Made by a program: the position numbers and the translations under genes
Shown: in pieces, positions 60,885 through 64,000 of the stretch
Numbering within the stretch: position 1 is the stretch's first letter
Layout: every line of letters begins with the position of its first letter
Notes under the pieces: generated by a model
Databases searched by the model: none
Told to the model about the DNA's origin: nothing
Seen by the model: only the letters and a program-made list of their open reading frames with translations
Source: Cephaloticoccus sp.
GTDB lineage: Bacteria; Verrucomicrobiota; Verrucomicrobiia; Opitutales; Opitutaceae
DNA: 64,000 bases
Reading direction: 5' to 3'
NCBI GenBank assembly: GCA_030833445.1
Contig: JAURHD010000002.1
Coordinates: forward strand, 124,001 to 188,000

Positions 60885-62171
60885 TCAGATTGCGATTTTG
60901 ATCCCTTTGCGCAGATAGGTCGGCACATCGAGGTCCTGCCCATCAAAGAGATTGCGATCGGTTTTCTCAAAGTGACCACGGCTTTCCAATTCACCGAAGC
61001 CAAATTCGTCCTGATCGATCTTGAGCTGGTCACGCCGCATCTGGGCAGTGACGGCCGCCCGGATGGTGGGTTCCGTCACTGGCGCCGCTGAAGGTAGTTC
61101 TTCACCGATGGGGGCTTGGTCTCCCACATCATTTGGCAATGGCGATCGGCTGCGCATCGGGGGCAAAGGCCGGCGCACGCTCACACCCCGGCCCCCCATA
61201 TCGCTGGTGCCGATCACGCAAATTTCCACCCGGTCCCGCAAATCCTCGTCAATGACCGCCCCCATGATGACGTGTGAGTTGCGACCGAACTGTTCGGTGA
61301 TGTCGCCCATCAACTCGTTCACCTTGGGCAAAGTCAGGTCCGCTCCACCGGTAATATTGACCAGCAGGCGATCGGCCTTGCGGGCAAACTCCGGGGTATG
61401 CAACAAGGGGCACATCTTGAGGCTGGCAATGGCATCCGCCACCGCGTTCTCACCGGCACCCTCGCCAAGTCCGAAAAGTGTCTTGCAGCCCCGGTTTTGA
61501 AAGGCCTGCCGGAGGGCGGAAAAGTCGAGATTGATGAGGCCGGTTTTGAACAACATCATCCAAATGGACTTCACACCCCGGCCAATCCAGGCATCTGCCT
61601 GCGCGAAAGCATCCAACACGGTCGCATCGTCTGCTCCTTCTTGGAGCAAAATGTCATTGGGCAGTGGAATCACTGCGTCACAAACCCGGCGCAGGGCCTG
61701 CAACCCCTCTTCGGCCTGTTTAAGACGACGCCCCCCCTCAAAGCTGAACGGCATGGTAACGAATGCGATGACCAGCGCGCCGGATTCCGTGGCAATCTCC
61801 GCGACGGTTGGCATGGCCCCACTCCCTGTGCCGCCACCCATCCCACCAATCAAAAACACCAGATCACAATCGGCGACCACCTTGGCAATTTTATCGCGGT
61901 CGGCCTCGGCCGCTTCACGGCCCAATTCGGGATCACCTCCGGCGCCCAAGCCCCGGGTCACACTCATGCCCAACAACACTTTGTCCTGCACCGGTGAGCT
62001 GGCGAGGGCTTGGGCATCGGTGTTGAGCACGGTCATTTGCAACCGCTCCAGATTTTCCATCTTCAGCCGGTCGACGGCATTCGAGCCCGCTCCACCCACC
62101 CCGATCAGTTTGATGGTGATGTTGGGATCACCCGGGTTGACGGTTTCCAAGGGAAGTTCGTTGAGATTCAT
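60885..62171 (-). CDS. ftsZ: Cell division protein FtsZ, with a changed T7 loop
   Basis: 428 residues from the ATG at 62171 (MNLNELPLETVNPGD); the ORF track begins 88 codons earlier, inside ftsA. The tubulin-type GTP-binding motif is 'GGMGGGTGSGAMP', with 'GVGGAGSNAVDRL' before it. The C-terminal conserved peptide is 'DVPTYLRKGIKI'. The T7 loop reads 'GLINLDFSALRQAF' where E. coli reads 'GLMNVDFADVRTVM'; Asp212 is Ala here. FtsZ forms the division ring, and this loop completes the GTPase site of the next subunit. It is 5 bases past the ftsA stop. Confidence 0.96.
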   Translation of the reverse strand: MNLNELPLETVNPGDPNITIKLIGVGGAGSNAVDRLKMENLERLQMTVLNTDAQALASSPVQDKVLLGMSVTRGLGAGGDPELGREAAEADRDKIAKVVADCDLVFLIGGMGGGTGSGAMPTVAEIATESGALVIAFVTMPFSFEGGRRLKQAEEGLQALRRVCDAVIPLPNDILLQEGADDATVLDAFAQADAWIGRGVKSIWMMLFKTGLINLDFSALRQAFQNRGCKTLFGLGEGAGENAVADAIASLKMCPLLHTPEFARKADRLLVNITGGADLTLPKVNELMGDITEQFGRNSHVIMGAVIDEDLRDRVEICVIGTSDMGGRGVSVRRPLPPMRSRSPLPNDVGDQAPIGEELPSAAPVTEPTIRAAVTAQMRRDQLKIDQDEFGFGELESRGHFEKTDRNLFDGQDLDVPTYLRKGIKIAI

Positions 62172-62176
62172 GGCGC

Positions 62177-63391
62177 TCAGGAATTGGCGAACAGTTTGGT
62201 AATGCCGCGGAGGAATCCGGTTCGGCGACGACTCGATCCGAGGCGTTGCGTATGGGATTGCACCCCGTAGTAGAGTAAGCCCAAGGCGGTGTTGTAACCC
62301 GGGTCCCGGAGGTTCTCGGCCACCCACGCGGGGGTTTCGCCCAGATGAACCGGCACGTTGTAGATCTTGGCGGCGGCTTCGGCGATTCCGGTCAACTTGG
62401 CGGTTCCGCCCGTCAACACGACCCCGCCGCTGCAATTGTCCACCGTGAAGGCGCCGCCTAATTTCTTCTTCACTACCTCAAGGATTTCCCAAGCCCGGGC
62501 CGAGGTGATTTGCTCGATCGCATGCCGGGAGAATTGCCGGTCACCAATGGCGAAATTGCCATCCAGCCAGACTTTTTCCGTCTTGTCGCGAGTTTGCACA
62601 ATCGCCCGTCCGTAACGCAATTTGAGTTTCTCCGCCTGCCCTTCCGTCAAACGCAGTCCGATACTCAAGTCATTAGTCAAATGGGTTCCGCCTACGGGTA
62701 GCACCCCGGTGGTGTGCGGCACGCCATCGCGATAGAGGACGTAATCGGTCGTGCCGGCCCCGATATCAATGGCCAGCACGCCATGCTGACGCTCTTCCGG
62801 CGTGGTCACCATGTGGCCGGAAGCCAGGCTGGAAAGGACGAGTTCGCTGACTTCCAGGTTGAATCCGCGGATCACGTGGATCGTATCGGCCAAGCGCTGT
62901 TCCTGGCCATGCACCGTCCAATACCCGACATCTAAACGCTGCCCCACCAAGTGTTCGGGCGAGGTTGGCACCAACCGGCCATCCACCCGGAACGGGCGCC
63001 GGATGTGATGCACCACCATGCGACCTTTCGGCAATTCCTTGGCTCGGGCCAGTTCACAGACGGTGCGGATATCCTCGGACCCAATCATGTTGTCCGCCGC
63101 TTTCACACTGACGGAGGATTCATTGTAGAAGCCCTCCAAGTGGCCACCAGTCTGGGCGAGAAATACCGTATCCGTGCGTTCACCCGCCTCGCGTTCCGCC
63201 TGCTCGAGCGCGCTGTGGGTGCATTCGCTGGCGGCCTTGTAGTCGACGACCGTGCCCTTGATCACGCCGCGCGACTGACACTCACCCCGGCCGATGATGG
63301 CGAGTTCGCGACCGGTGTATTCACCGATCAGCACTGTTACTTTGGAGGTGCCGATTTCGACGGCACCGATAAAATGGGGACTAGAGCTCAA
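62177..63391 (-). CDS. ftsA: Cell division protein FtsA
   Basis: 404 residues. The actin-like ATPase has 'GAVEIGTSKVTVLIGE', 'LAIDIGAGTTDYVLY' and 'GGVVLTGGTAKLTGI'. The C-terminus 'GFLRGITKLFANS' is an amphipathic helix that tethers it to the membrane. It anchors FtsZ filaments. The only plausible start is TTG at 63391, overlapping the ftsQ stop; no in-frame ATG or GTG lies near it. Confidence 0.96.
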   Translation of the reverse strand: MSSSPHFIGAVEIGTSKVTVLIGEYTGRELAIIGRGECQSRGVIKGTVVDYKAASECTHSALEQAEREAGERTDTVFLAQTGGHLEGFYNESSVSVKAADNMIGSEDIRTVCELARAKELPKGRMVVHHIRRPFRVDGRLVPTSPEHLVGQRLDVGYWTVHGQEQRLADTIHVIRGFNLEVSELVLSSLASGHMVTTPEERQHGVLAIDIGAGTTDYVLYRDGVPHTTGVLPVGGTHLTNDLSIGLRLTEGQAEKLKLRYGRAIVQTRDKTEKVWLDGNFAIGDRQFSRHAIEQITSARAWEILEVVKKKLGGAFTVDNCSGGVVLTGGTAKLTGIAEAAAKIYNVPVHLGETPAWVAENLRDPGYNTALGLLYYGVQSHTQRLGSSRRRTGFLRGITKLFANS

Positions 63392-64000
63392 TGGTCTTGG
63401 GACGGGTTGGCTTGAATAGTGATTTTGCGGGAGCGTTCTGCTTTGGCGCCAGATTCTGCCCGGGCCGCGGTTCGCTGAAGGTTACCGGCACTTGGATACG
63501 TCCGTCGGTCATGCGTCCCACCGCGAGATTGATCTCGGTTACGGGTTGGTCGGCCTGAGCCCGCACGGAATCGATCAATACGTCCAGTTGAGCAATCTGG
63601 CGCAGAAAATCCGCGGAATTATTGGCGAGGAAAATGATGCGTTCGATGTTGGACGCGCGCACCTCAATTACTCGGTCGGCTTCGAGCCGGGCCAATGAGA
63701 CAACCTTCCATGTTTGATAGAGGTGGGGTGCTTCATTGCGAGCCGTAGCCAGCAGATCAGCCACCACGCTCATGTCGGCAATCGGCTGCAATTTGTCACC
63801 TACCTTGGCCAGCCGGATACCGTCCAAAAAGGGCAACGTGCCCATGAGCGATCGATCGTAACCACGGCCATCATAAACCACGCCGTCCCGCGCCACCAGT
63901 AACGGCCGCGGAGCGCCTCCGCCCAATTGGGCATTCACGAGGGCGACAGGGGAACGTTCGGCCAAGGTGATTTCCAAAGTGCTGGGGAATTTACGAGCCA
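63381..64000 (-). CDS. ftsQ: Cell division protein FtsQ, C-terminal part (partial at right edge)
   Basis: The minus frame stays open to the right edge and reads 'ARKFPSTLEITLAERSPVALVNA', as expected for the end of the POTRA domain and the start of the FtsQ beta domain; the ORF track takes a TTG at 63977 as start, but the gene continues upstream. 'YDRSLMGTLPFLDGIRL' and 'IIFLANNSADFLRQIAQL' follow. The N-terminal membrane helix lies outside the window. FtsQ links the FtsBL subcomplex to the divisome. The stop overlaps ftsA by 11 bases. Confidence 0.9.
   Translation of the reverse strand, partial: ARKFPSTLEITLAERSPVALVNAQLGGGAPRPLLVARDGVVYDGRGYDRSLMGTLPFLDGIRLAKVGDKLQPIADMSVVADLLATARNEAPHLYQTWKVVSLARLEADRVIEVRASNIERIIFLANNSADFLRQIAQLDVLIDSVRAQADQPVTEINLAVGRMTDGRIQVPVTFSEPRPGQNLAPKQNAPAKSLFKPTRPKTIEL

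Follow-up and report, generated by a model that had tools for sequence, protein, structure and literature searches.

GTP-hydrolysis-driven treadmilling of FtsZ is central to models of division, and the pair of aspartates in its T7 loop is treated as universal. In filament structures of Staphylococcus aureus FtsZ, Asp210 (Asp209 in Escherichia coli) swings and places the attacking water; Asp213 (Asp212 in E. coli) stays put and, together with Arg143 and bridging waters, gives the chemical environment (PMC8936486). The D210N and D213N substitutions both block assembly in S. aureus, and the same source describes the two aspartates as conserved from species to species (PMC8936486). According to the figure cited for it in PMC8142252, E. 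coli FtsZ D212A has 7% of wild-type GTPase activity, and Arabidopsis FtsZ1 D275A has about 15% (PMC8142252). The GTPase activity of E. coli FtsZ D212G is below 1% of wild type, and the rings that form are static (PMC7320174). Overexpression of FtsZ(D212A) together with FtsA in E. coli, over wild-type FtsZ, produced extra septa at which division was completed (PMC4383033).

Within the phylum considered here, the FtsZ of Verrucomicrobium spinosum has been counted among the most divergent FtsZs, and the papers on it deal with the tubulin signature and the C-terminal extension of the protein (PMC1845146, PMC12283558). Verrucomicrobiota FtsZs have been described as the most divergent group in a tree of the FtsZ family (PMC9871819). 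A term search found no statement on missing T7 aspartates in these three papers or in the open-access literature, to which most subscription journals do not belong. We thus found no published description of a natural loss of Asp212 in Opitutales FtsZ, which does not prove novelty.

The ftsZ gene and its T7 loop

The window, that is the whole stretch of DNA that was analysed, comprises 64,000 nucleotides from Cephaloticoccus sp. and carries the following features.

60885..62171, minus strand: ftsZ, 428 amino acids plus stop, ATG start (open reading frame; TIGR00065 equivalog, PF00091, PF12327)
60894..60935, minus strand: C-terminal conserved peptide DLDVPTYLRKGIKI, residues 413-426, expected to bind FtsA (sequence)
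61500..61541, minus strand: T7 (synergy) loop and start of helix H8, GLINLDFSALRQAF, residues 211-224 (alignments)
61515..61517, minus strand: Ala219, codon GCC, equivalent to E. coli Asp212 and S. aureus Asp213 (alignments)
61524..61526, minus strand: Asp216, equivalent to E. coli Asp209 and S. aureus Asp210, the T7 catalytic aspartate, kept (alignment; Asp in 115/115 of the family)
61530..61532, minus strand: Asn214, equivalent to E. coli Asn207 and S. aureus Asn208, kept (alignment; Asn in 113/115 of the family)
61725..61727, minus strand: Arg149, equivalent to E. coli Arg142 and S. aureus Arg143, the active-site arginine, kept (alignment; Arg in 115/115 of the family)
61815..61847, minus strand: tubulin signature or G-box GGMGGGTGSGA, residues 109-119 (sequence, alignment)
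62177..63391, minus strand: ftsA, directly upstream of ftsZ (TIGR01174 equivalog, 288.6 bits)
63381..63977, minus strand: open reading frame upstream of ftsA, ftsQ-like by position only (no profile match)

The ftsZ product scored 312.2 bits against NCBIfam TIGR00065, above the curated cut-off of 295.2 and hence at equivalog level, and it matched both PF00091 and PF12327. The FtsZ motifs GGGTG[S/A/T]G and GxxNxD (T7) are present as GGMGGGTGSGA and GLINLD. The gene also shows the linkage expected of ftsZ, with ftsA as its neighbour in a dcw cluster and a C-terminal FtsA-binding peptide, in which LDVPTYLRKG aligns with LDIPAFLRK of E. coli and DLDVPT is identical in eleven Opitutales members. Downstream lies obg, and the open reading frame in the place of ftsQ had no match in Pfam or NCBIfam. 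An AlphaFold model (pLDDT 80.6; the two best of five models agreed in confidence and the other three were poorer) has the FtsZ fold. Its top PDB matches were all FtsZ, with a TM score of about 0.8 to the S. aureus, B. subtilis and M. tuberculosis proteins. Because the C-terminal subdomain around T7 was modelled at lower confidence, the model was used for the fold only.

The genome is a draft of 2.9 Mb in 72 contigs and is 97.75% complete. A PF00091 search of it returned a single match, this ftsZ, which is the sole tubulin-family gene found; genus and family searches showed a single FtsZ locus in nearly all Opitutaceae members. The closest named relative is a Cephaloticoccus MAG with 85% identity across the FtsZ protein. 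Between the window gene and its nearest relative dN was 0.084 and dS 1.60, which indicates purifying selection. The preliminary description had taken the gene to be intact and not decayed outside the T7 loop, and these values, the equivalog match, the G-box, the C-terminal peptide and the adjacent ftsA bear this out.

The central claim of that description was that the T7 loop keeps Asn207 and Asp209 and has Ala, codon GCC, in place of Asp212. It held in the alignments. With MAFFT, GLINLDFSALRQAF aligned with GLMNVDFADVRTVM of E. coli K-12 FtsZ (b0095) without gaps and set Ala219 on Asp212. With phmmer, the loop was likewise ungapped against the FtsZs of B. subtilis (2vam), Pseudomonas aeruginosa (2vaw) and S. 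aureus, with the same placement of Ala219. Entry 3wgj, used as the S. aureus reference, is a chimeric protein carrying the T7 loop of B. subtilis; S. aureus 5xdv also has Asp at this site. Of the canonical pair of acidic residues the window FtsZ therefore has the one at 209 (Asp216) and lacks the one at 212 (Ala219).

Position 212 in Opitutales and the wider phylum

FtsZ sequences were collected by protein searches of the genus, family, order and phylum and from 80 named Opitutaceae/Verrucomicrobia genomes, in which the gene was located by the patterns AVIPLPND and DLDVPTY, both outside the T7 loop. Removal of duplicates left 115 distinct Opitutaceae cores. Each count gives a number of species sampled and should not be read as a number of independent events; the control outside the phylum consisted of four model FtsZs and published statements. 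Neither Asp nor Glu was found at 212 in any of the 115 cores, where the residue was Thr (86), Ala (14), Gln (7), Ser (6), Gly (1) or Lys (1). The named assemblies likewise had no acid at this position (0/80; 71 Thr, 9 Ala), and their T7 loop was otherwise invariant (GLINLDF). Asp209, Asp45, Thr108, Glu138, Arg142 and Asn165 were each present in 115/115 cores, Asn207 in 113/115 and Gln47 in 107/115.

The check proposed in the preliminary description, whether relatives share the loss, came out in its favour: an acid at 212 is lacking in the whole of Opitutaceae and in most of Opitutales. Among order sequences with the ten other active-site residues intact, 116 of 118 had no acid there, as did all sequences from 20 of the 23 sampled Opitutales families with readable FtsZ. 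The three remaining families have Asp at 212 (f24, 2/2; f9, 1/1; f2, 1/3), so that the residue was kept or regained there and is not always disfavoured. The preliminary description had also envisaged that another acidic residue might substitute, and had named an Asp elsewhere in the loop aligned to 212 as a refuting result. The loop offered neither: when sequences with and without Asp212 were compared, no acid that could replace it emerged within the loop or close to it, and acids other than Asp209 occurred at positions 203-221 in at most 5 of the 115 cores. These results confirm that the loss of Asp212 in the window FtsZ is real, beyond chance or sequencing error. Throughout an entire order, the division motor has apparently done without a residue that it was thought to need.

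A tree of 131 FtsZ cores was built with column 212 left out. Opitutales FtsZ formed one clade (SH-aLRT 100) in which 66 of 70 rows lacked an acid at 212, and the fewest changes at 212 over the phylum tree were 13. In the first tree f24 was nested among Opitutaceae; we do not claim a regain of Asp212 from this, since a tree that places f24 outside all other Opitutales was not rejected (p-AU 0.79). Among 59 sequences from outside Opitutales, an acid was present at 212 in 33 and at 209 in 40, and at both positions in only 15. The reverse loss occurs in six sequences from four families of the same class (f29, f31, f32 and f33), which have an acid at 212 and Gly or Thr in place of Asp209; Asn207 is replaced by Arg or Gln in 4 of these 6. 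In some lineages of the phylum the T7 loop is far more eroded, with both Asn207 and Asp209 among the residues lost. Sequences of the most divergent families (L158-L164) were left out because their loop alignment was unreliable.

Two sequences of family f30, L162 and L163, come from genomes of 2.3-2.5 Mb; their T7 motif is unrecognisable and their tubulin GTPase domain still scores above the Pfam cut-off.

A search for the MinC C-terminal domain, which does find E. coli and B. subtilis MinC, gave no match in 29 relatives or in 111 phylum genomes including that of the window. A tie between the loss of Asp212 and the loss of MinC was therefore uninformative, MinC being absent from all 111.

Six small Opitutales genomes, of 0.8-1.0 Mb and 90-95% completeness, belong to five families (f7, f25, f26, f27 and f28). 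A tubulin-family search of them found nothing even at E = 1; FtsA reached the cut-off in none, and that search picked up MreB-type proteins only. FtsW/RodA is kept in all six and MreB in 5 of 6. Four FtsZ-bearing Opitutales genomes and that of the window, tested alongside, all had FtsA. The six are apparently FtsZ-less Verrucomicrobiota, a phylum said to carry the complete set of dcw genes, ftsZ among them (PMC12283558). Two larger genomes of the order (4.1 and 2.7 Mb) also had neither FtsZ nor FtsA above the cut-off; other members of their families have FtsZ, and the absences may stem from gaps in the assemblies at the dcw cluster.

How an FtsZ without Asp212 may work

The preliminary description suggested that this FtsZ may hydrolyse GTP slowly. 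We regard the following form of that suggestion as probable, though with considerable room for doubt: an ordinary FtsZ, the only one of its genome and under selection, in which Asp212 was replaced at an early stage of Opitutales evolution, would be a real GTPase, but one much slower than the FtsZ of E. coli or B. subtilis, and its filaments would turn over slowly. The sequences themselves show that the second T7 aspartate has given way to a residue that is small or polar, in most cases Thr and here Ala, and that all other residues of the composite GTPase site have been kept. Asp209 would still position the catalytic water, so that filaments would go on hydrolysing GTP, only more slowly, and division would run on a more stable, slowly treadmilling FtsZ. 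That hydrolysis should persist is suggested by the absolute conservation of Asp209, the water-placing residue; the invariance of Asp209 together with Arg142 argues that hydrolysis still matters in Opitutaceae. The low rate is probable by analogy with the engineered mutants of model FtsZs.

The same mutants also point to the main rival. Because S. aureus D213N fails to assemble, a family without this acid must differ somewhere else in the protein, and that difference may restore the rate too. Another change, for example in a residue of the nucleotide-side subunit, a Thr hydroxyl or the cation site, could stand in for Asp212, with hydrolysis and treadmilling normal, which we consider possible but rather unlikely. 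Compensation of this kind would suit a loss that is old and stable in a family whose active site is otherwise strictly conserved, and Thr or Ser is the most frequent replacement at 212; the window residue Ala, however, offers no hydroxyl. Several acids are commoner in sequences without Asp212, among them window Glu178 after the PND motif (63% versus 5%). Yet simple enrichment between related groups is no evidence for compensation, Glu178 is found in only 53 of the 84 sequences without Asp212 and it is still there in a sequence that has Asp212 (L054). No acid has been gained in or near the T7 loop, and no candidate residue stands out.

Hydrolysis could also have become dispensable, with GTP used for assembly only and other factors dismantling the filaments. 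Lineages of the phylum without Asn207 and Asp209 suggest that strong hydrolysis is not needed everywhere, and E. coli D212G still makes rings, if static ones (PMC7320174). Asp209 and Arg142 should then vary freely, however, and both are present in 115/115 cores, which makes this improbable. It is very improbable that the acid is contributed at mixed interfaces by another FtsZ or a tubulin, as in chloroplast FtsZ1/FtsZ2 or BtubA/B: two-component FtsZ/tubulin filaments are known elsewhere (PMC8142252), but the single PF00091 match in the genome, in a family with nearly always one locus, largely refutes it here. An artefact of sequencing, pseudogene formation or misalignment, for which one might cite the draft state of the genome in 72 contigs, is refuted by the agreement of 80/80 named genomes, the ungapped alignment and a complete, constrained gene.

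Beyond the slow GTPase that we favour for Opitutales, a broader scenario is conceivable, although we think it doubtful. Verrucomicrobiota FtsZ might be losing its GTPase-activating loop stepwise: one aspartate in Opitutales, the other elsewhere, then most of the motif and finally ftsZ and ftsA together in small-genome Opitutales. If this were true, the phylum would show living intermediates toward the FtsZ-less division of its relatives, the Chlamydiae and Planctomycetes.

Comparison with known FtsZ and tubulin systems

In a free-living order that lacks one aspartate of the pair, nature has in effect tested how much hydrolysis division needs and which carboxylate is essential, and neighbouring lineages without the other aspartate provide a matched comparison. 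The window protein resembles the canonical FtsZs of E. coli, B. subtilis and S. aureus in its equivalog level, GTP-binding residues, Asn207, Asp209, Arg142, fold, ftsA neighbour and C-terminal peptide. It differs in that those proteins have Asp at 212, whereas the window FtsZ and its relatives have Ala or Thr.

The engineered E. coli proteins D212A and D212G (ftsZ2) have lost the carboxylate at the same position, and D212A carries the very residue of the window. They are laboratory mutants, however, whereas the change in Opitutaceae is natural, old and fixed in the family. The E. coli ftsZ2 (D212G) mutant is reportedly viable.

The T7 loop of beta-tubulin has no counterpart of Glu254, the acid of the alpha-tubulin loop, and it forms a non-hydrolysing interface. 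The likeness lies in a T7 loop without the acid; tubulin, however, alternates two subunits, so that one interface keeps the acid, whereas here all interfaces would lack it.

The FtsZ of V. spinosum (VerFtsZ) belongs to the same phylum and is recognised as a very divergent FtsZ and as essential (PMC1845146, PMC12283558). Sampled relatives of the class show the opposite pattern to the window FtsZ, with Asp209 lost (Gly or Thr) and an acid at 212.
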